From Cladocopium goreaui (Eukaryota; Sar; Dinophyceae; Suessiales; Symbiodiniaceae): a stretch of DNA of 64,000 nt. Shown here one piece after another: positions 3-48,480 of the stretch. The notes under the pieces were generated by a model. That model was not told the DNA's origin. It was given only the letters and a program-made list of their open reading frames with translations, and made no database searches. The first letter of the stretch is position 1. Every line of letters begins with the position of its first letter. The position numbers and the translations under genes are program-made. The stretch covers positions 88,493 through 152,492 of the forward strand of contig CAMXCT020001439.1 of NCBI GenBank assembly GCA_947184155.2, given 5' to 3'.

Positions 3-1532
3 TTGGTCCAGAATACAGAGGATTTGTCTTCCTATTCCTGGCGGCGAGCAGCGCCCACAGTGGGCACTTTGATGAAGCTGACGCCTCTCGAGCTATGTTC
101 ACTGGGGGACTGGGCAGATCGTTCCCAGATCCCAAAGGAGGCGACAATGCCTATGCACTACAGTGCAGCTAGGTATGAGTCTTCATTGAGGACCAAGCAC
201 ATTGTGAGGTTGGCCATGGAAAAGCTGCTTGCCCATGAGTCATGGGAGACCATCCCAACAGAGACCTATGCTGAGGCCCTGGAGTATGCGCGCCAGAACG
301 TTGACAAGGTGCTGAAGCAGGAATCCAGGGTCATTTGGGCAGCTCCTTTGACGAAGGCGGAGATGCAGGCGCGTTTCCAGCTGTCGGAGGCTCTCAAGCT
401 CAAAGCTGCGGCCAAACGAGAGGAGGCACAAGCCAAGGGTGGCCTGTCTGCGATGCCGGCATCCCTCAACGGGAAGGTGCTGAGCGCATTCATGAAGAAT
501 GGGGCGCCTATTTGTGGAGCCTTTCAGACAAGGTCTTGCCCCTTGGAGAAGGAAACGTGTCCTGGTCGCCATGCATGCGCCATTCTGCGCAAAGCTGGAC
601 GAGTTTGTGGTGGAGGCCATCCGGCATGTGAATGCCACGACAAGAAGTTCATCAAGGTGGAGGAGATGACTGGCGAAGGGCCTGGTTCGGGATCTGCTAA
701 GGCCAAGCCTACTAGCAAATCCACGGAGGAGCGACCTCCGGAGCCAGCTGCCCCTCCGAGGGCGTCAGTGAGGCGCTCAAGGTCCCCACAAGAGCCGCCG
801 TCTAAGGCACCGCCAGCGAAGAAGGCCAAAGCAGCCCCAGCTCCACCTCCAGCGCCATTGCCAGCCCTGGTTACTAGTTCGGAAGAAGAAGAAGTTGAAG
901 TCGAGGAGGAGGACCTTCCGATTCCAGAGGCGCTGGATACTCGAGGGCCCGACCAGAAGTTCGACAGGTTGGCGACAGTCCATGGCAAGACAGCGGAGAG
1001 CCCGAGCCTTATTTATCAGAATAGGGCAGGGGGCAAGCTGTGGCTGAGTGGAATCCCAACCAGGAACACGGCAAATCGCTTTCCAAAGGGAGTTACCCTT
1101 CAGATTGCGTGCATGGCCGAAGCCCCATCATCCAGAGGAGGAGTGGTGCTCACAGATGCCCTCTTGAAACACCTGTGTGTGGCCCATGGTGGTTCAAGGA
1201 ACAGGGACTTCGAAGAAGGCAGGCGCTCGTTGGACATTCCGGGGATCATCCATGAAGAGGGTATGAGGTCGTGGGTGGACACGACTCTCAGGACCAGCTC
1301 CCTCAGGAACCCGTTCCCAGAGCCCTGTGGCTACATTGCGACACTTCGTTCAAAGGTCCACCTGGAGCTCAACAACGGCCAGACCCTCTGCTCCCACAAG
1401 CAATCTGCCGAGCGTGCAATCCGCTTGGTGAAGCCAATGACGACGCAGGACATGAGGGAGGCTATGGCTTGGGGCCGCGCTTTTTGTGACGGTTGTTTGG
1501 TGCGAGCAGCAGCGAGCTGGCATCCACGCTGA
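3..1532 (+). CDS. Gag-like zinc-finger protein of a dinoflagellate retroelement, 5' partial
   Basis: The frame is open at the left edge, so the true start is probably outside the window. About 509 residues are visible. A helical N-terminal part is followed around residues 171-212 by a zinc-binding segment: a C-x7-C-x6-C-x3-H finger and then a C-rich CG..H....C knuckle. The same layout occurs in the gag-like ORF at 1973-3178, which indicates a retroelement nucleic-acid-binding coat protein. Next come a proline/lysine-rich linker and an acidic run (residues ~298-310). The C-terminal ~190 residues are not recognised. No reverse transcriptase follows in frame, and 440 bases later a second gag starts, so this element looks cut short on its 3' side or interrupted. 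Retroelement gag is fairly secure; the exact family is not. Confidence 0.6.
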   Translation: MVQNTEDLSSYSWRRAAPTVGTLMKLTPLELCSLGDWADRSQIPKEATMPMHYSAARYESSLRTKHIVRLAMEKLLAHESWETIPTETYAEALEYARQNVDKVLKQESRVIWAAPLTKAEMQARFQLSEALKLKAAAKREEAQAKGGLSAMPASLNGKVLSAFMKNGAPICGAFQTRSCPLEKETCPGRHACAILRKAGRVCGGGHPACECHDKKFIKVEEMTGEGPGSGSAKAKPTSKSTEERPPEPAAPPRASVRRSRSPQEPPSKAPPAKKAKAAPAPPPAPLPALVTSSEEEEVEVEEEDLPIPEALDTRGPDQKFDRLATVHGKTAESPSLIYQNRAGGKLWLSGIPTRNTANRFPKGVTLQIACMAEAPSSRGGVVLTDALLKHLCVAHGGSRNRDFEEGRRSLDIPGIIHEEGMRSWVDTTLRTSSLRNPFPEPCGYIATLRSKVHLELNNGQTLCSHKQSAERAIRLVKPMTTQDMREAMAWGRAFCDGCLVRAAASWHPR

Positions 1533-1972
1533 CCTTGTCAGGAGTGGCGCACCAGAATTCATTTGAATAAGAGACGCACAGGGCCGATTTTGGTAAGCTG
1601 ATCAATGTGGTCCATAGCTTGCCCGTAGGCTAACATGCATTTGAACCATTTGAGAGCTTGACTTCTGCGTGGAAAATGGCCCTATCAACATCCGGGAGGA
1701 TGAAGTCATGACAGGCTGTGATAACTAGTCTTACCGGTATGTCATGAGGTGGCTTACACAGGTATCTGTGAGGACAAGCTACATGATGTGCGCCGGGGAT
1801 AGAGACTAGGATACAGTCTGTCGTACCCCTGAGGAACAGGGGAGTTCTTGTCTTACCCCCCCTGTCACCTCCTTCTGTCCCTGGATGGCAGGTGATGTGC
1901 AGCATGCGGGAGGCATGTTTGGGGGTGAGCAGCTTTGAATGTTCAAGTCATACAAGGAGTTACCTTGAGAAA
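1533..1972 (+). other. Probable untranslated leader of the downstream retroelement
   Basis: No convincing coding frame is seen. The stretch separates the stop of the first gag-like ORF from the second gag. It is rich in short G/C blocks, including a C-run at about 1857-1862, and ends in the second gag ORF. It is read as the 5' untranslated part of the second element from position alone. No long terminal repeat partner was found beyond 6835. Confidence 0.3.
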
Positions 1973-3178
1973 ATGACTAGTGTTCGATTGGTTCCGGTGG
2001 AGAGTACCACCATTCAGGAAACCATGGAGTCTCTAGGGCTGAATTTTTCGTTGGACCCCGTTGTGACCAAGGCGTTGTTGGCCACCAAGATTCAGAACCT
2101 TGAGGAGTTTCGGTTCCTCTTTGAGGATGAGTCGAAAGTCGACACGTTCTTGGCCAAGTTGCAACTCGGTGATGATAGGTTGATTCAAGGCTCTAGGCTG
2201 CGTAGAGCTTGGACTGCAGTGACCTTGTACTACAAGAACCAGGACCAGGATAGGTCCAAGATCAGTGTCAGCGATCTTGATACTATGTTGGCCGACACGG
2301 AGTTGCGTGATGTCAAATCCAACTTCTGGGTTCGGTATCGGATGAGATTCCCACCAGAGATCCATCCAGCTGATGCCACACTCTCTCGGATCAGCAGGGA
2401 GCTATCCAAGAGGATGCTGTGCGTATATAACTTGTGGAAGGTTCGCACTTTGCAGTACCAGCTCCACACGACTCAGAAGAAGCGCAAGCTGGCGGAAGGG
2501 CTCTATACTGAGGAGGCTGAGGACGAGGACAAGATCCCTCATGACTGGGAGAACTATCTGGATCGTCTCCTCACTTTGCTGGTCGCATATGCCATGGCGG
2601 GAGTGACCCCCAGGGCTAATGTGCGGGATGCCTCGGCGGAGAAGACCCTTGGCGCCGACTCGACAACCTTCGTGGAGGTGCCGCTGGATGTCGTCATGCA
2701 ATATTTCTACAGAGCGAAGCGTCAGTCAAGTGCACTGCCGTTGTCACAGAGGTTAGCCTGGCTAGAATCTCGTGACCTTGAGGATCGCTCCGATTGGGTT
2801 GCCAAATTTCGGGAATCATCCAAGTCCTTGGGGGAGGTCATCAAGGAGACCTGTGTGGCACGTGATGCCCATTGGGTACCACACGCGGTGCCCGGAGCAC
2901 TCAAGGCAGAGGCGAGCAAGCCCACCACAGTGGCTGCGGCAGCAGTTCAGCCACCATCCCAGTTTGCGCTGGGCAAGCCGGTCAGTGGCAAGAAGGTGGC
3001 CAAGGTGATGCGCGATGGCTCCAAGATTTGTCAGGCCTTCCAACATGGACAGTCCAAGAACCCCAAAAGCTCTTGCCCCCAAGGTCAGCACAAGTGTGGT
3101 ATCGTGGTTCGTGGTGAACGCATTTGTGGTATGCCGGGGCATGGAGCCATCCAATGTCGGGCGAAGATTTCGCCATGA
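1973..3178 (+). CDS. Gag-like protein of readthrough retroelement
   Basis: About 401 residues if translation starts at the ATG at 1973. An in-frame ATG at 1892 would add 27 residues; 1973 is preferred because the added residues look like leader. The body is mostly helical, with a charged KKRK segment. From residue 353 to the end is a cysteine/histidine block: C-x14-C-x4-H, then C-x4-H-x4-C. This is the same kind of finger and knuckle as in the upstream ORF and is expected to bind RNA. The ORF ends at TGA 3176-3178, the next codon is CGG, and the same frame stays open into the RT polyprotein. Expected role: coat protein of the element, made alone or as the front of a gag-pol fusion. Confidence 0.65.
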   Translation: MTSVRLVPVESTTIQETMESLGLNFSLDPVVTKALLATKIQNLEEFRFLFEDESKVDTFLAKLQLGDDRLIQGSRLRRAWTAVTLYYKNQDQDRSKISVSDLDTMLADTELRDVKSNFWVRYRMRFPPEIHPADATLSRISRELSKRMLCVYNLWKVRTLQYQLHTTQKKRKLAEGLYTEEAEDEDKIPHDWENYLDRLLTLLVAYAMAGVTPRANVRDASAEKTLGADSTTFVEVPLDVVMQYFYRAKRQSSALPLSQRLAWLESRDLEDRSDWVAKFRESSKSLGEVIKETCVARDAHWVPHAVPGALKAEASKPTTVAAAAVQPPSQFALGKPVSGKKVAKVMRDGSKICQAFQHGQSKNPKSSCPQGQHKCGIVVRGERICGMPGHGAIQCRAKISP

Positions 3179-6100
3179 CGGGGCCCAGCGGGAGAGGCGG
3201 GCACTTCTGCTGGGCAGGATGAGGCAAGACCCGTAGACAGAGTTGACTGTCAGCTGCCACGGATGGCGGACCTTTATGCGGGGCCTAAGACACCTCTGTC
3301 CAAAGCCTTCATCTTTTGTGGTTGGGAGACCATTTCCGTGGATTGGATGTTGGATAGGAGTCATGACCTATCCAACAGTCTCAGGCAGCAATCGTTGCAT
3401 GAGCAGTTGCAGTCCGTGTGCTTCATCGCAGCAGCTTTGGATTGCTCCACCAAGAGCCGCGCGAGGGAAATTCCGCGGGACTTTGGTGATGGGCGCCCAC
3501 CACCCCGGCCGTTGCGATCTGAGCAACACCCGCTGGGTCTCCCTGAGCTAACAGGGTCTCAGCTGACACGGGTGGAGCAGGACAATGCGGCTGCAAGCTT
3601 CGTGCTGTCCGAGATCGATCAGTTGGTGGACAGGGGTGGTGGATCAGTCCGCGAGAACCCATACAACAGCCTCCACTGGTGGACACCGGATGAGGTGGCG
3701 ATGTGGGAGAGCGGTCGCTGGTCCGATCAGCGGTATTCAGCCTGCTGCTTTGGTGGTGCCAGATCGAAGCTGCAGCGGCTGCGCCACAACATTGCAGAGA
3801 TCGCCCAATGGCCTAGAGCTGACTGCAACCATTTCCATGATCCCCAGGAATGGGAACCTTGGGTGCAGGATGGTAAGCGCCATTTTCCTTCAGCTGAGGA
3901 GTCCGAGTATACAGCAGAGCTATGTTTTGCAATTGCCACGGCAGCTTCGTGGTGGGCAGTGCGTGTTGGACACGCCAAGCTCTATGTGCCGAGGTCCCCA
4001 TCGCCGAGCTGCACCGGACATCGGGACCATTGGCTTGACCTCGATCCCAGAGCACTTCGTGAGTGGGCTATGACCCCACTAGCCATCAGCCTGGGTTTGA
4101 GACCCTTGGACACAGCTGAAGCAGCTAGGGTGCCCACGAGAGCATGTGTTGAAGATGTATTGCAACAGGGTGCACTTCCCCCCGGTCATGTGTATGTGGG
4201 GCTTGGAAGTCATACTCACCGCCTGCCGACCACCAAGTGGAAGTCTCCATGGCAGTTGGGCGTGAATTGCACCCCTCAAGACTGGGTCCCCTACTACGTC
4301 CAATACATCAGGGAGACACTCTGGTGCGAGTTGGATGAGCTCGAGGGGTCAGTGCTGGTCTGTGATTGCCCAGCGGCCCAAACTTGCGAGGCCGACCTCC
4401 TAGCCGGATTGATTTTTGATCGCTTGAGTGAGCAGGGCCCGCGGGGTGCCCCACAGGTGGTCCAAGGTCAGCATGGCAGGAGTCACCAGGGAGTTACCCG
4501 ACGTGTCCTCTTGTCGAGTGTAGCGCAGGCTACAGGCATCCCTTTTGGGCCATTCTACATTCTGCAGGAGTCCTTGGCGCTAGCTTTCAAAAAGCTTTAT
4601 CCAGGAGAGTGGTTCGAGGGAGTGGCCATCCCCTTCGTGGAGGACTTAGTGAACCAGCACCCACTTGACCTGTATGTGCGATGGCGCCACCAACAGGGGC
4701 TGGACATGGAGGGCAGCTGCAACCCCGTGTTGGCAGCCCCTTCAGTGCGGCAGAAGATGAGGACGGCAGAAGGTCAGCAGGTGGGAGCGATCAACCACAG
4801 AGCGGCGCTGGCCCCTCTTCTGCCCTTTCACCTTCAGCCAGACCAGCACTTTGAGCAAGCCCTTCAGCTCAGCATGCAACCGTTGCCTACTGAGGGGCTT
4901 CCCATTTTGGACGATGACCTGAGGTTTGCTGCATCTTTCTCCAGCCTGCCAGGAGTGGACCTGCGTAGGTTGCGAGAGCGCTCCATGGGCATCTTATCTG
5001 AGATGAAGAGACGGTGGAGCTCGATCACGGCCCATTTGAGACACAAACAGACTGAGGCCATCAGGACAGCAACAATGCAGCGTGATATCGGTTTCACTGC
5101 AATTCTCCTTCTTGTAGCCAATTGGGGCGATGTGACACTGCCAGCAGGCCTGTGTATGGGGCTTCCAGCAGTGGGGTATGCGCCGCCATATGGCATTTTT
5201 CCGGAACAAGTTGCCACCCGTTTGACGCGTGAGGATGTACTCCAGGACTGGCAGAGCCACAACAACACCATTTTGGCTCGGCTCAAGCCAGATGCCGATG
5301 ATGAGTTTTTGTTGCAGCAAAGCCTCAAAGATGCAGAGAAGGGATTTTGTGGTTTGCCCATGACTGCAGAGGAACTGCAGCGTTGTCTGGGTGCGGAACC
5401 CTACCGGTTGATCCCTCGATGCGTCATCACACAATCCTCGGGGAAGCAACGAGTGATTGACGACGCCTACGTTGGCTTGCAATCTGAGCGCTCCAGTGAC
5501 GCGAACAAGCTCACCCTTTGCTCAGCGCTGCGGCCGGCCCAACACCTGCAGTATGCCTACGCCTTTGGGAGTTCACCCAACTGGGAGGCAGAAGAATGGG
5601 AGTCCGGAGGTGAGGATTGGCCGGATGCCTATCGTTTTTGCCCTATGAGTTGGGATGAGGCTTTGTGCTGCATTGTGGCCTTCTTCCATCATGAATGGCA
5701 ACAACCAGCGTTTATGATTTACACAGGTTTGCTATTTGGTCTTCCTCTTGCGGTCACATCTTTCAATCGATACAGTCGTTTTGTGGAGGCTTTATCACGT
5801 CGATTTGCCTTTTGTTTGACCAGTCTGTATTTCGATGATGCTCACTTGACAGACCGCAAGTCGTGCCGAGGATCAGGTCAGAGAGCTATGCAGACCCTTA
5901 ACAACCTTTTGGGCACACCATTTTCCGAGGAGAAATGTCAGAAGATGCAGAGTACCGGCACCTTCCTGGGCCTGGATCACGACTTCAGTCAAGTCCATTT
6001 GAAGGGTCTGGTTCAGTTTTGGGCCCGTGAACGCATCGAGACCAAGTTGCTTCACCTCATGCAGACCGCCGAGGACTCCGGCAAGCTGCAACCAGGGGTG

Positions 6101-6835
6101 GCGGCCAAGCTCTACGGCATCGCCAACTTCTTTGAGCTTGGCGTGTGGGGGCGCATTGGCTGCGGTGGCTTGGCCCCAATCAAGCATAGACAGCAGGAGC
6201 GCTCCGCAGAGTTAACTGAGGAGTTGCGCCAAAGCTTTGACCTGCTGCGCACTGTCATCACCACCCGTCCCTCTCGCCACATTGAGATCTGGCCACATGC
6301 AGGGCTCCGCTTCCTCGCTGCTTCGGATGCTGCGTTGGAGAGCCCAGGTCAGGGGACTGGGGGCTTCTTGGTGGTGTGGCATGACGATCACCGGCAACAC
6401 CGAGAGGCGTTTGTTTCTCTCATTCCCCCATTGGTGTATAGCCTATGGGAGCCTGGTGACAAGAAGATTGCCCAGTTAGAGCTGCTGCAAGTGCTTTACG
6501 CTTTGTTTTCTCGGCCGTCCAGATTTCGAGGCAGACGAGGTCTCTGGTTCATCGACAACACAGCAGCGTTGATGGCATTGATTCGAGGTCGTTCTGACAA
6601 TGCAGATTTAGAGCATATGTCACGGTTGATTCATGTTACTCTTTTTGGTCTTAAGGCTTGGTTTTTCTGGGAGTGGATCCCTAGTAAGGCCAACTGGTCT
6701 GATGAGATCAGCCGTGCAGGCCTCCAGGCAACATGGCACAAATGCCATGGGTTCACCACGCATTTTGCATTTTTCCCCTTCGAGATTTGGTCTCTACCAC
6801 TTCCCGCGTTTCTCCGGGTTGTGGAGTTTCTCTGA
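3179..6835 (+). CDS. Pol polyprotein: DUF4326 domain, reverse transcriptase, RNase H
   Basis: The frame is continuous with gag from the codon after its TGA; the first ATG is at 3263 and residues here are counted from it (1190 aa). Residues ~310-395 match DUF4326: a V-Y-V-G start, P-T-T-K-W-K-S-P, then an L-V-C-D-C-P core. RT motif A is E-D-W-P-D-A-Y-R (D785), motif B is the L-x-F-G-L-P-L-A-V-T-S-F-N-R block, and motif C is Y-F-D-D at 856-859. The RNase H fold has candidate acidic residues D1022 (S-D-A), E1073, D1098 (I-D-N-T) and D1147 (W-S-D-E). The protein stops ~40 residues later, and no integrase, tyrosine recombinase or endonuclease domain is visible. It looks intact. It could be DIRS-related or an unclassified dinoflagellate family. 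Confidence 0.75.
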   Translation, partial: RGPAGEAGTSAGQDEARPVDRVDCQLPRMADLYAGPKTPLSKAFIFCGWETISVDWMLDRSHDLSNSLRQQSLHEQLQSVCFIAAALDCSTKSRAREIPRDFGDGRPPPRPLRSEQHPLGLPELTGSQLTRVEQDNAAASFVLSEIDQLVDRGGGSVRENPYNSLHWWTPDEVAMWESGRWSDQRYSACCFGGARSKLQRLRHNIAEIAQWPRADCNHFHDPQEWEPWVQDGKRHFPSAEESEYTAELCFAIATAASWWAVRVGHAKLYVPRSPSPSCTGHRDHWLDLDPRALREWAMTPLAISLGLRPLDTAEAARVPTRACVEDVLQQGALPPGHVYVGLGSHTHRLPTTKWKSPWQLGVNCTPQDWVPYYVQYIRETLWCELDELEGSVLVCDCPAAQTCEADLLAGLIFDRLSEQGPRGAPQVVQGQHGRSHQGVTRRVLLSSVAQATGIPFGPFYILQESLALAFKKLYPGEWFEGVAIPFVEDLVNQHPLDLYVRWRHQQGLDMEGSCNPVLAAPSVRQKMRTAEGQQVGAINHRAALAPLLPFHLQPDQHFEQALQLSMQPLPTEGLPILDDDLRFAASFSSLPGVDLRRLRERSMGILSEMKRRWSSITAHLRHKQTEAIRTATMQRDIGFTAILLLVANWGDVTLPAGLCMGLPAVGYAPPYGIFPEQVATRLTREDVLQDWQSHNNTILARLKPDADDEFLLQQSLKDAEKGFCGLPMTAEELQRCLGAEPYRLIPRCVITQSSGKQRVIDDAYVGLQSERSSDANKLTLCSALRPAQHLQYAYAFGSSPNWEAEEWESGGEDWPDAYRFCPMSWDEALCCIVAFFHHEWQQPAFMIYTGLLFGLPLAVTSFNRYSRFVEALSRRFAFCLTSLYFDDAHLTDRKSCRGSGQRAMQTLNNLLGTPFSEEKCQKMQSTGTFLGLDHDFSQVHLKGLVQFWARERIETKLLHLMQTAEDSGKLQPGVAAKLYGIANFFELGVWGRIGCGGLAPIKHRQQERSAELTEELRQSFDLLRTVITTRPSRHIEIWPHAGLRFLAASDAALESPGQGTGGFLVVWHDDHRQHREAFVSLIPPLVYSLWEPGDKKIAQLELLQVLYALFSRPSRFRGRRGLWFIDNTAALMALIRGRSDNADLEHMSRLIHVTLFGLKAWFFWEWIPSKANWSDEISRAGLQATWHKCHGFTTHFAFFPFEIWSLPLPAFLRVVEFL

Positions 6836-7467
6836 GTGCTTTGGGATGAAGTGCATTGGGAGAGATTCAACCTGTGTAGCCTCCTGAGTTTACAGGAGTG
6901 CGGAACAGGGTGTACGGATCCAACCAGTGCTGCTGTGCAGGAGACTACCTGCACAGCGTTCCAAAGCACTATCCTGCGAGGAGCAGGTTGAGACCGCACG
7001 AAGAGTTTGGGAAGAAAAAACCATGCGGATGTGAGCCTGGATAGAGTGAACCTTTTGAGTATCTATGCTTTACATCTCACAACTAATGTATATATATATA
7101 TAATAGTGTATAATATATACACGTGTTAATCAACGCTTCAACTGGTATTGGTAAAGTTATTCATTCTTGTTCGTAATCTTCCCGCTTTGGTTTGTCGAAT
7201 GCCAATGTTGTGTTTGCTCTCGATTGCTCTCGCAATATCCACTCCATTTCAGTGAAATCATCTGAGACAAAATGAGTTTTTTCCATAGTTTTTCCATGTT
7301 TTTCATGGCCCTGGGACACTGGAGACCCCAGGAAGAGGGCTATCCCAGCGTGAAACACGGCCGTGACTTCGAGCTCAGCGGGACGCCTGCGCAGCTCAAC
7401 GTCTCCAAGACCCTCTACGACTTGTGACTCGGCAGAACTCGGCACAGCCCAGGGGACCAACAGATTG
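6836..7467. other. 3' flank of retroelement and AT-rich spacer
   Basis: The first ~170 bases after the pol stop are GC-balanced and probably the element's 3' untranslated region. A TA-rich tract follows at 7086-7122. Around 7320-7430 the plus strand has a short frame (G-Y-P-S-V-K-H-G-R-D-F-E-L-S-G) with coding-like composition. It may be an isolated exon; it was not recognised. Confidence 0.3.
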
Positions 7468-40060: not shown

Positions 40061-40756
40061 CCTTTATAGGGTATGTACTATATCACTATATCTATTCATT
40101 TCAACCACGGTGGTATCCCCATATACCTTTGATATAAAACCACAAATATTATCCCTGATGGTCATTCCTTTACTGAAGGACTAATTTTCCCCATTATTTC
40201 TATGTTTATATCATATCCATTATCCAACAGAACCTTCAACCCCACACCACCACCCGGTGGGTGGTGGCCGGTGGCCACCACAACCAGTGAGCAGTTCCTG
40301 CCAGTCGGCTGGGATTTTGGCGGATGGGCCCGGTGTGCTGTCTACCATCAAAATATTACCCCGGGTTGCTGGAATCTACAAAGGACAATTTTTTCATTAA
40401 CTATTCCCCATTCATGGTGATGTTAATACTGGTACTAAATATGTGCAGGTTCACTACCAGGATTTTTATATAACGGATGTTACGTTTCTGTTTTCCGCTT
40501 AGATTTGAATTTTATATCTGTCTCTGTGACAAAGAACCCTAGATTCCAATACTATAGCGTTAATGTGTATACAATTACAAGCCTTGAAGCAAAATCAGGC
40601 AGATTTCATACGATAAATATCCATCTGCAATTTTCAAATCCGCAAAGATCCTTTTCTGGACCTTTCAATCAGAATTACAGGGAAGAAGCATTAAGCAGTG
40701 ATATCTAAAATTACTTTACTTCGAGTGATCCCCACCCTGGCATTTCAAGTCATATA

Positions 40757-43989: not shown

Positions 43990-46900
43990 TAGAGCCTTTG
44001 AAAGGCTAATTATCCTAATTATCCTAATTAATTAGGATGATTAGGATAATTAGCCTCCTGGAGAGCCTTTGGAAGGCTAATTATCCTAATTATCCTAATT
44101 AATTAGGATACTTAGGATAATTAGCCTCCTGGAGAGCCTTTGGAAGGCTAATTATCCTAATTATCCTAATTAATTAGGATGATTAGGATAATTAGCCTCC
44201 TGGAGAGCCTTTGGAAGGCTAATTATCCTAATTATCCTAATTAATTAGGATACTTAGGATAATTAGCCTCCTGGAGAGCCTTTGGAAGGCTAATTATCCT
44301 AATTATCCTAATTAATTAGGATGATTAGGATAATTAGCCTCCTGGAGAGCCTTTGGAAGGCTAATTATCCTAATTATCCTAATTATTGCTAAAGCCTCCA
44401 GGGTCCAGACCTTTGATTTTGCTAATTATCCTAATTATCCTAATTAATTAGGATACTTAGGATAATTAGCCTCCTGGAGAGCCTTTGGAAGCCTAATTAT
44501 CCTAATTATCCTAATTAATTAGGATAATTAGGATAATTAGCCTCCCGGAGAGCCTTTGGAAGCCTAATTATCCTAATTATCCTAATTAATTAGGATAATT
44601 AGGATAATTAGCCTCCCAGAGAGCCTTTGGAAGGCTAATTATCGCAATTATCCTAATTATTGCTAAAGCCTCCAGGGTCCAGACCTTTGATTTTGTTAAT
44701 TATCCTAATTATCCAAATTAATTAGGATAATTAAGATCATTAGCCTCCCGGAGAGCCTTTGGAAGCCTAATTATCCTATCCTAATTATCCTAATTAATTA
44801 GGATAATTAGGATAATTAGCCTCCCAGGGAGCCTTTGGCAGCCTAATTATCCTAATTATTCTAATTAATTAGGATAATTAGGATAATTAGCCTCCCAGGG
44901 AGCCTTTGGCAGCCTAATTATCCTAATTATCCTAAATAATTAGCCTCCCAGAGAGCCTTTGGAAAGCTAATTATCCTAATTATCCTAATTATTGCTAAAG
45001 CCTCCAGGGTCCAGACCTTTGATTTTGTTAATTATCCTAATTATCCTAATTATCCTAATTATCCTAATTAATTAGGATAATTAAGATAATTAGCCTCCCG
45101 GAGAGCCTTTGGAAGCCTAATTATCCTAATTATCCTAATTATCCTCATTAATTAGGATAATTAGGATAATTAGCCTCCCAGAGAGCCTTTGGAAAGCTAA
45201 TTATCCTAATTATCCTAATTATTGCTAAAGCCTCCAGGGTCCAGACCTTTGATTTTGTTAATTATCCTAATTATCCTAATTATCCTAATTAATTAGGATA
45301 ATTAAGATAATTAGCCTCCCGGAGAGCCTTTGGAAGCCTAATTATCCTAATTATCCTAATTAATTAAGATAATTAAGATAATTAGCCTCCCAGGGAGCCT
45401 TTGGCAGCCTAATTATCCTAATTATCCTAATTATCCTAATTAATTAGGATAATTAGGATAATTAGCAAAATCAAAGGTCTGGACCCTGGAGGCTTTAGCA
45501 ATAATTAGGATAATTAGGATAATTAGCTTTCCAAAGGCTCTCTGGGAGGCTAATTATCCTAATTATCCTAATTAATTAGGATAATTAGGATAATTAGGCT
45601 TCCAAATGCTCTTTGGGAGGTTAATTATCCTAATTATCCTAATTAATTAGGATAATTAGGATAATTAGGCTTCCAAAGGCTCTCCGGGAGGCTAATTATC
45701 TTAATTTTCCTAATTAATTAGGATAATTAGGATAATTAGAATAATTAACAAAATCAAAGGTCTGGACCCTGGAGGCTTTAGCAATAATTAGGATAATTAG
45801 GATAATTAGGCTGCCAAAGGCTCTCTGGGAGGCTAATTATCTTAATTAGGATAATTAGGATAATTAGGCTTCCAAAGGCTCTTCGGGAGGCTAATTATCT
45901 TAATTATCCTAATTAATTTGGATAATTAGGATAATTAGGATAATTAGAATAATTAACAAAATCAAAGGTCTGGACCCTGGAGGCTTTAGCAATAATTAAG
46001 ATAATGAGGATAATTAGGCTGCCAAAGGCTTTCTGGGAGGCTAATTATCCTAATTATCCTAATTAATTAGGATAATTAGGATAATTAGGCTTCCAAAGGC
46101 TCTCCGGGAGGCTAATTATCCTAATTAATTAGGATAATTAGGATAATTAGGATAATTAACAAAATCAAAGGTCTGGACCCTGGAGGCTTTTGCAATAATT
46201 AGGATATTTAGGATAATTAGCCTTCCAAAGGCTCTCTGGGAGGCTAATTATCCTAATTATCCTAATTAATTAAGATAATTAGGATAATTAGGATAATTAG
46301 GCTTCCAAAGGCTCTCCGGGAGGCTAATTATCTTAATTATCCTAATTAATTAGGATAATTAGGATAATTAGGATAATTAGGATAATTAACAAAATCAAAG
46401 GTCTGGACCCTGGAGGCTTTAGCAATAATTAGGATAATTAGGATAATTAGCTTTCCAAAGGCTCTCTGGGAGGCTAATTATTTAGGATAATTAGGATAAT
46501 TAGGCTGCCAAAGGCTCCCTGGGAGGCTAATTATCCTAATTATCCTAATTAATTAGAATAATTAGGATAATTAGGCTGCCAAAGGCTCCCTGGGAGGCTA
46601 ATTATCCTAATTATCCTAATTAATTAGGATAATTAGGATAGGATAATTAGGCTTCCAAAGGCTCTCCGGGAGGCTAATCCTAATTATCCTAATTAATTAG
46701 GATAATTAGGATAATTAGGCTTCCAAAGCTCTTTGGGAGGCTAATTATCCTAATTATCCTAATTAATTAGGATAATTAGGATAATTAGGCTTCCAAAGGC
46801 TCTCCAGGAGGCTAATTATCCTAAGTATCCTAATTAATTAGGATAATTAGGATAATTAGCAAAATCAAAGGTCTGGACCCTGGAGGCTTTAGCAATAATT

Positions 46901-48480
46901 AGGATAATTAGGATAATTAGCTTCCAAAGGCTCTCTGGGAGGCTAATTATCCTAATATCCTAATTAATTAGGATAATTAGGATAATTAGCCTTCCAAAGG
47001 CTCTCCAGGAGGCTAATTATCCTAATTAATTAGGATAATCCTAATTAAATTAGGATAATTAGGATAATTAGGCTGCCAAAGGCTTTCTGGGAGGCTAATT
47101 ATCCTAATTATCCTAATTAATTAGGATAATTAGGATAATTAGGCTTCCAAAGGCTCTCCGGGAGGCTAATTATCTTAATTATCCTAATTAATTAGGATAA
47201 TTAGGATAATTAGGATAATTAGGATAATTAACAAAATCAAAGGTCTGGACCCTGGAGGCTTTAGCAATAATTAGGATAATTAGGATAATTAGCCTCCCAA
47301 AGAGCCTTTGGAAGCCTAATTATCCTAATTATCCTAATTAATTAGGATAATTAGGATAATTAGCTTTCCAGAGAGCCTTTGGAAGACAAATTATCCTAAT
47401 TATCCTAATTATTGCTAAAGCCTCCAGGGTCCAGACCTTTGATTTTGTTAATTATCCTAATTATCCTAATTAATTAGGATAATTAGGATAATTAGGGCTA
47501 ATTATCCTAATTATCCTAATTAATTAGGATAATTAGGATAATTAGGAGAATTAACAAAATCAAAGGTCTGGACCCTGGAGGCTTTAGCAATAATTAGGAT
47601 AATTAGGATAATTAGCATTTCAAAGGCTCTCTGGGAGGCTAATTATCCTAATTATCCTAATTAATTAGGATAATTAGGATAATAAGGATAATTAGCAAAC
47701 TGAAGGGTCTGAAACCTCAAGACTTTAGCAATAATCAAAATAATTAAGATAATTAGCTTCCCAAAGGCCCTCCAGAAGGCTAATTTTCAATAATATCCTA
47801 ATTAATTAGGATAAACGGGATAATTAGCTTTCCAAAGGCTCTCCAGAAGGCTAATTATCCTAATTAAACAGGATAATTAGAATAATTAGGATAATTAGCA
47901 AACCAAGAGGTCTGTAGCCTCGGGGCTCTGCCAATAATCAGGATAATTAGGATAATTTGCCTCCCAAAAGCTTTCCAAGACAATGGGGAAAATTGCCATA
48001 GCTGGGGTAATTAGCAAACCTGAAGTTTCAGAGCCTGGAGGCTTTACCTATATTCAGGATAGTTAGGATAATTAGCCTTCCAAAGGCTCTTCGGACTGCT
48101 AGTTATCTTAATTTTCTTAATTAATTAGAATAATTCGGATAAGTAGCCTTTCGAAGGCTCTTCGGAAGGCTAATTATCCTGATTATCCTAACTAATAAAT
48201 TTATAAGATAATTCAGATAATTATCAATTATCAAACCAAGAGGTGTGGAGCCCGTGGGCTTTAGCAATAATTTCAACTCAATAAGGAGAATTAGCTTTCC
48301 AAAAGGGTATCTGGATTGCTATATGTTCCTAATTATCTTCATTGATTAGGAGAACTAGAATAGTTGGGAACCAAAAGGTCTGGAGCCTGGGATGTTACCA
48401 ATAATTAAGATAGTGTGGACAATTAGCCTTCCAAAAGGTTTCCCGGAATGCTGATCCCCAGAATTTTGGTAAGTATCCTA
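43990..48480. repeat. 4.5-kb array of palindromic units with orientation switches
   Basis: The core unit is a palindrome built from TAATTATCC repeated toward a central AATTAATT and its mirror (up to ~42 bp perfect). Two spacer types alternate. Type 1 is GCCTCC(C/T)GGAGAGCCTTTGGAAG. Type 2 contains CCTCCAGGGTCCAGACC followed by TTTGATTTTG. Spacers read forward to ~45440, reverse from ~45465 to ~47280, forward to ~47510, and reverse to the end. From ~47700 to 48480 units become steadily more diverged. Nothing coding. Confidence 0.95.

Follow-up and report, generated by a model that had tools for sequence, protein, structure and literature searches.

The subject of this study is the junction between gag and pol in a retrotransposon of the dinoflagellate Cladocopium goreaui, one copy of which lies in a stretch of 64,000 nucleotides (contig CAMXCT020001439.1, positions 88,493 to 152,492 of the forward strand); this whole stretch is hereafter called the window, and coordinates refer to its plus strand unless another locus or strand is named. 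We take the element to be a tyrosine-recombinase (DIRS-order) retrotransposon and not a retrovirus-like long-terminal-repeat (LTR) element. Its gag and pol share one frame that is interrupted by a UGA, and we consider it very probable that this codon is subject to programmed readthrough, which would yield Gag together with some Gag-Pol. The proposal is built upon an invariant UGA, a frame common to both genes, conservation that begins directly after the stop, and a hairpin or pseudoknot at a fixed distance downstream. An earlier note, made from the letters of the window alone, had offered the same interpretation, and the comparison of copies and families described below lends it support.

The gag-pol junction

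The gag-side frame is open from position 1787 to TGA 3176–3178, the proposed readthrough stop; CGG follows (3179–3181), and from 3179 the same frame remains open for 1218 codons, up to a TGA at 6833–6835. The earlier note had singled out this TGA-CGG hexamer and its long same-frame continuation, and our frame check bears out both this and its statement that a spacer of 28 codons (3179–3262) is open ahead of the first in-frame ATG (3263–3265). Upstream of the junction is the gag-like open reading frame (ORF) 2 (401 codons, 1973–3178), which ends with a Cys/His finger, six further residues and the UGA. Downstream, the pol frame (3179–6835) contains a conserved N-terminal domain, a DUF4326-like domain, a reverse transcriptase and, as read by eye, an RNase-H-like C-terminus.

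Conservation of the stop codon

We compared 94 junction sequences (the window copy, L009–L047, L049–L088, L091–L101 and L102–L104), most of them picked by similarity to pol or gag, with L102–L104 coming from a pattern scan. TGA is kept in 90 of the 94 (86 scored by script, L060 by eye, and three more); the stop is lost by deletion in two (L029 and L032), and two are unreadable, in that L068 has no recognisable junction and L097 stops at a contig end. None of the 94 carries TAA, TAG or a sense substitution at the stop position, and only one of the 90 TGA junctions has a frameshift in the spacer (L030); thus neither a sense codon nor a broken spacer, either of which in most copies would have told against the earlier note, is a common state. 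Scans of the entire 1.17-Gb genome with the stop triplet left free gave TGA at 51/51 family-A sites, a lower bound on the number of such sites, and at 13/13 family-C sites; the reversed control pattern gave 0 matches in each case.

The families in question are well separated: A, B and C are 54–57% identical in gag and 51–52% in pol, and over the first 76 pol residues A and C share 39% identity. UGA stands at the same position in all three, and the stop is, on this sequence comparison, old. The codon that follows is less constant. Among the 86 scripted junctions it is CGG in 51 (families A and A'), CAC in 29 (family B) and AGG in 6 (family C). The earlier note had described UGA-CGG as a leaky context in some RNA viruses; the UGA of that pair is kept across families but CGG is confined to A and A', and we reject CGG as the key context since it is unconserved elsewhere. 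The conserved putative signal is UGA plus the hairpin or pseudoknot, not UGA-CGG.

In family B, frames of up to 1626 codons run through one TGA. When a more divergent gag query was used and 103 of 533 candidate places were scored, a single one (C5827, the same locus as L032) had a gag frame that reaches pol. In this family-C copy, which is otherwise damaged, the stop and part of the hairpin fall within a short in-frame deletion, so that gag and pol are fused in a frame of more than 1500 codons. Divergent pol queries (P0019, P0024 and P0033) mostly returned the same families. A pattern search of viral contigs gave no match, and in genome contigs 10 stretches matched a pattern, with 0 confirmed.

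Database proteins describe a similar junction; the named matches to the element are from Symbiodinium and Effrenium. We inspected the best 120 of the 200 gag homologues found, 118 of them new, and left the 45 that lack a finger uncounted: 71 of the 73 finger-bearing homologues among these 118 end 4–9 residues past the terminal finger, and their tails are of 56 distinct kinds. In the six gag-pol fused proteins that could be aligned across the stop (P0051, P0055, P0058, P0092, P0180 and P0181), the aligned residue is W in 6/6, which represents either a TGG or a TGA that the gene caller read under another code. This count leaves out P0029, P0032, P0038, P0047, P0053, P0054, P0056 and P0059, which are gene models or rearranged proteins with no W at an alignable stop.

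The spacer

Families A, A', B and C have in common a P..EA..S.G motif immediately 3' of the stop. Nucleotide diversity at codon positions 1/2/3 was computed for the first 20 family-A sequences, without L009: it is 0/0/2.32% in the spacer, 1.12/0.41/5.32% in gag and 1.12/0.48/5.81% in pol; in the two flanking non-coding stretches it is 0.96/1.36/0.71% and 0.89/1.21/1.49%. By these patterns the spacer looks coding. The methionine encoded at 3263 is not universal: its place is taken by Ala in family C (L067 and L093–L096), by Ile in L031, and by Val, Leu or Phe in some database homologues.

RNA structure downstream of the stop

The earlier note had suggested a search for a downstream stem-loop, and one was found: a hairpin starts 5 nt past the UGA, with an 11-bp stem (stem 1; 5' arm 3184–3194, 3' arm 3204–3214; the window copy has a twelfth pair, 3183–3215) and a 9-nt loop (3195–3203). 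Among all 33-nt segments of gag-pol, the hairpin ranks first in fold stability in the window's family-A copy (of 4829 segments), in one family-B copy (of 4833) and in one family-C copy (of 4835). Its offset from the T of TGA is 7 in family A, 7 in B and 8 in C. Synonymous diversity in family A has its minimum, among 320 windows, at 3158–3217, a segment that covers the stop (0.0 versus a mean of 6.2%). A longer, 121-nt fold of the window junction exceeds shuffles in stability by a moderate margin only (z -2.04).

Stem 1 has 98.1% of its cells paired across 19 unique sequences, a value that 0/500 shuffles reach; the same holds for the 14 cells changed on both sides and for the covariation score of 0.333, each also reached by 0/500. 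If the register is slid, pairing falls to 47–68%. A chance hairpin was considered and rejected: at the same spacing, 10 or all 11 such pairs can form at 239 of the 127,922 positions on the two strands of the window. Within the window, 21 stop triplets are followed by such a hairpin; one is the UGA at 3176, one lies at 40151 on the minus strand, and the other 19 are in a palindromic satellite at 44–48 kb. In this satellite (44000–47900), the palindromic unit (TAGGATAATTAGCCT...) is roughly 71 bp long and is present in both orientations.

The loop can pair in turn with a segment 14–17 nt past the stem, as GCGGG/CCCGU in family A and GCGGC/GCCGC in families B and C; in the window copy this proposed stem 2 joins GCGGG at 3197–3201 to CCCGT at 3230–3234. 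Allowing the best of eight offsets, all five of its pairs can form in 25 of 25 unique sequences; in the same set, 268 of the 275 pairs of stem 1 are present. L102 retains the CCCGT segment although several neighbouring positions have changed. Hairpin and loop pairing together have a possible H-type pseudoknot geometry, as modelled. The minimum-energy fold of the window includes a different, outer pairing, ACGGG/CCCGU, which uses the same CCCGU in family A; we prefer the loop pairing because the outer one has no visible counterpart in family B.

A model for the expression of pol

Bearing these observations in mind, we propose that translation by most ribosomes would end at the UGA of gag, with release of Gag. 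The remaining few would be held by the putative H-type pseudoknot that begins 5 nt downstream and would decode UGA by a near-cognate tRNA, the best-fitting inserted residue being tryptophan; these ribosomes would go on through the spacer into pol, giving Gag-Pol at what may be a low, fixed ratio to Gag, and this ratio probably matters for replication. A broader proposal seems to us somewhat better than an even bet: that UGA readthrough, with a retrovirus-like pseudoknot of independent origin and insertion of tryptophan, extends throughout a superfamily of dinoflagellate tyrosine-recombinase retrotransposons and is a signal new in print. Literature searches confined to open-licence papers turned up no description of stop readthrough for DIRS-order elements, dinoflagellate retroelements or dinoflagellate nuclear mRNA, in agreement with the earlier note, which knew of none in dinoflagellate elements; such absence is no proof, since the search covered that class of papers only.

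Several points weigh against readthrough. The third-position signal in the spacer gets weaker when families are pooled: with L009 and L030 left out, variable spacer sites by codon position number 3/3/8 in 40 family-A sequences (6/14 at positions 1–2) and 7/5/17 in all families (12/29 at positions 1–2). Protein and RNA constraint on the spacer are not fully separable, because P..EA..S.G overlaps the hairpin. In stem 1, 2 pairs show two-sided change and there are 8 further pair types, counts no greater than in shuffles (457 and 287 of 500 reach them), so that covariation is confined to two pairs and few lineages; only three deep families underlie the DNA comparison. Stem 2 pairing taken by itself is weak against shuffles (fractions 0.016 to 0.12, six sequences), and the structure begins 5 nt past the stop, where viral signals usually leave about 8 nt. 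There is also the precedent of the Candida albicans retrotransposon Tca2, whose gag and pol are likewise separated by a UGA with a potential pseudoknot. In a yeast reporter this junction did not support readthrough, which was mimicked by a cryptic promoter; the source of pol was nonetheless gag-pol RNA, through a bypass that is unexplained (PMC2194720).

Could the UGA be nothing more than a nonsense mutation in a copy that is dead? The window copy does have other defects, namely a 153-bp deletion in ORF1 and a missing 3' A2-B2 segment (see below), but we reject this explanation, to which we assign next to no probability, because the same UGA recurs at 51/51 and 13/13 sites and in three families. 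A general reading of UGA as Trp in the host is likewise rejected: the gag-pol frame has 46 TGG codons and, besides the junction, 0 TGA codons. Some selenoprotein mRNAs carry a stem-loop just 3' of the UGA, and the hairpin might in this light mark redefinition of the codon as selenocysteine; we regard this as highly improbable. The fused homologues have Trp at the site, not Cys, and a scan of 1500–7200 against Rfam gave four sub-threshold matches (E 0.24–3.9), all on the minus strand and none of a selenocysteine insertion sequence (SECIS) type, on which ground we reject it.

The remaining alternatives would have pol made separately from gag. One is reinitiation or an internal start at an AUG past the gag stop (ATG 3263), with the hairpin serving that event: reinitiation is an established mechanism, mainly following short ORFs (PMC3542737), and 13 of 23 listed stand-alone pol predictions begin at Met 3263, although gene callers pick starts mechanically. 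It is nevertheless an unlikely explanation, for conservation across families extends to spacer codons that precede any in-frame AUG, the methionine itself is replaced in family C, L031 and some homologues, and reinitiation demands neither UGA over UAA or UAG nor a common gag-pol frame in every family. The other is a separate pol mRNA, produced by splicing, spliced-leader trans-splicing or an internal promoter. Dinoflagellates do trans-splice a leader onto mRNAs (PMC12014239), and the cryptic promoter of Tca2 in yeast lay at its junction (PMC2194720); still, a separate mRNA predicts neither an invariant UGA, nor a conserved in-frame spacer, nor a hairpin at fixed spacing, and we judge it quite improbable. 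Reinitiation, a separate mRNA and selenocysteine are all disfavoured because none predicts the conserved in-frame spacer together with the invariant UGA; we therefore retain programmed readthrough as the preferred explanation.

The element and its other features

Our assignment to the DIRS order follows from A-coding-B-A-B repeats and an upstream ORF with a tyrosine-recombinase-like motif. The earlier note had described a retroelement gag-pol; that identification is confirmed, with the refinement that the element is of the tyrosine-recombinase type, unlike retrovirus-like LTR elements. Its gag-pol coordinates were also right, but the element is larger, with a 5' repeat that begins ~2.3 kb ahead of the window. 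A second instance of this 119-bp A repeat, 100% identical, lies between B1 and B2 in four of five copies compared (L010, L022, L025 and L026, not L012), which completes the split direct repeats of the DIRS-order layout. The B repeat is single in the window copy (6858–7118); a second B is present in 14 of 20 other loci, two of the remaining loci being cut by contig ends. The 3' part of the window copy (6836–7118) is without both a second B and the A2 repeat. The 20 copies first fetched are 94–99.6% identical to the window copy, mostly over 5.6 kb. L009 has the same flanks as the window copy and is either a duplication of this locus or another haplotype of it, not an independent insertion.

ORF1 starts ~0.9 kb before the window, and its C-terminal part (3–1532) is tyrosine-recombinase-like, with a Cys/His finger-like motif. 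By eye we read in it R..K..R..W..Y, which we take to be the tyrosine recombinase catalytic motif; ORF1 gave no Pfam match to a tyrosine recombinase. The window copy has lost 153 bp in frame at 1218/1219. Other copies (L025:565–717) keep these 51 codons of ORF1, with HCLSGRHRAG, a CX5R tyrosine-phosphatase-like signature; these codons give weak, under-cut-off matches to Y_phosphatase3 and DSPc. A similar Cys/His finger-like module is seen by eye in the recombinase ORF (3–1532) and at the end of gag (3000–3175), as if duplicated within the element.

In pol, Pfam matched RVT_1 (5669–5974, E 7.7e-6) and DUF4326 (4175–4405, E 1.1e-4), both slightly under their curated cut-offs. These two domains of the earlier note were thus recovered; its RNase H was not, as no Pfam RNase H model matched pol at E ≤ 1, and the RNase-H-like C-terminus is for that reason a by-eye reading of motifs. 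The pol N-terminus (3263–3520) contains DLYAGPN...AFIFCGW...VDW, which we presume to resemble motif I of a DNA methyltransferase-like fold; no Pfam DNMT model, Dnmt3 included, matched pol at E ≤ 1.

Significance

If our proposal is right, gag-pol stop readthrough, best known from gammaretroviruses and RNA viruses, would also have evolved in tyrosine-recombinase elements, and stop readthrough would work in dinoflagellates, whose translation is little studied. The element would then offer a compact, naturally replicated signal (at least 51 family-A sites in one genome, and three divergent families) for testing the rules of UGA readthrough, and the same signal could serve as a probe of dinoflagellate release factor behaviour. 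It would also provide a valuable, well-conserved comparison for the UGA of Tca2, which is unexplained.

Comparison with known systems

The DIRS-order relatives that come closest are the SymbioDIRS elements of Symbiodinium, which have a tyrosine recombinase in a separate ORF, A-coding-B-A-B repeats and a pol with a divergent reverse transcriptase (PMC5890265). Our element is like them in all three respects (its separate ORF being recombinase-like), but it lacks a match to the Dnmt3 domain that was described in their Pol. The word readthrough is absent from the main text of that paper, and the terms read-through and stop codon are absent from the accessible part of an overview of DIRS1-like elements (PMC3266345).

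Among readthrough systems, murine leukaemia virus (MuLV) has an in-frame UAG at the end of gag, a short spacer, a 3' pseudoknot and pol behind it (PMC2194720). The order of parts is the same here, with a pseudoknot that is proposed, whereas the particulars differ: UAG, a purine-rich spacer and a vertebrate retrovirus in the one case; UGA, a 5-nt spacer between stop and structure, a DIRS-order element and a dinoflagellate host in the other. Type II viral readthrough combines UGA-CGG or UGA-CUA with an extended stem-loop ~8 nt downstream, and is found in alphaviruses, tobra-, peclu-, furo- and pomoviruses, and coltiviruses (PMC3542737). Families A and A' resemble it in their UGA-CGG (51/86) and in the stable, extended 3' stem-loop; unlike type II, families B (CAC, 29) and C (AGG, 6) have another codon in place of CGG, the stem is at 5 nt, not ~8, and the loop can form a pseudoknot. 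Tca2 shares with our element the gag-UGA-pol order and the potential pseudoknot, but Tca2 is a fungal LTR element, whereas the one described here is of the DIRS order and resides in a dinoflagellate.

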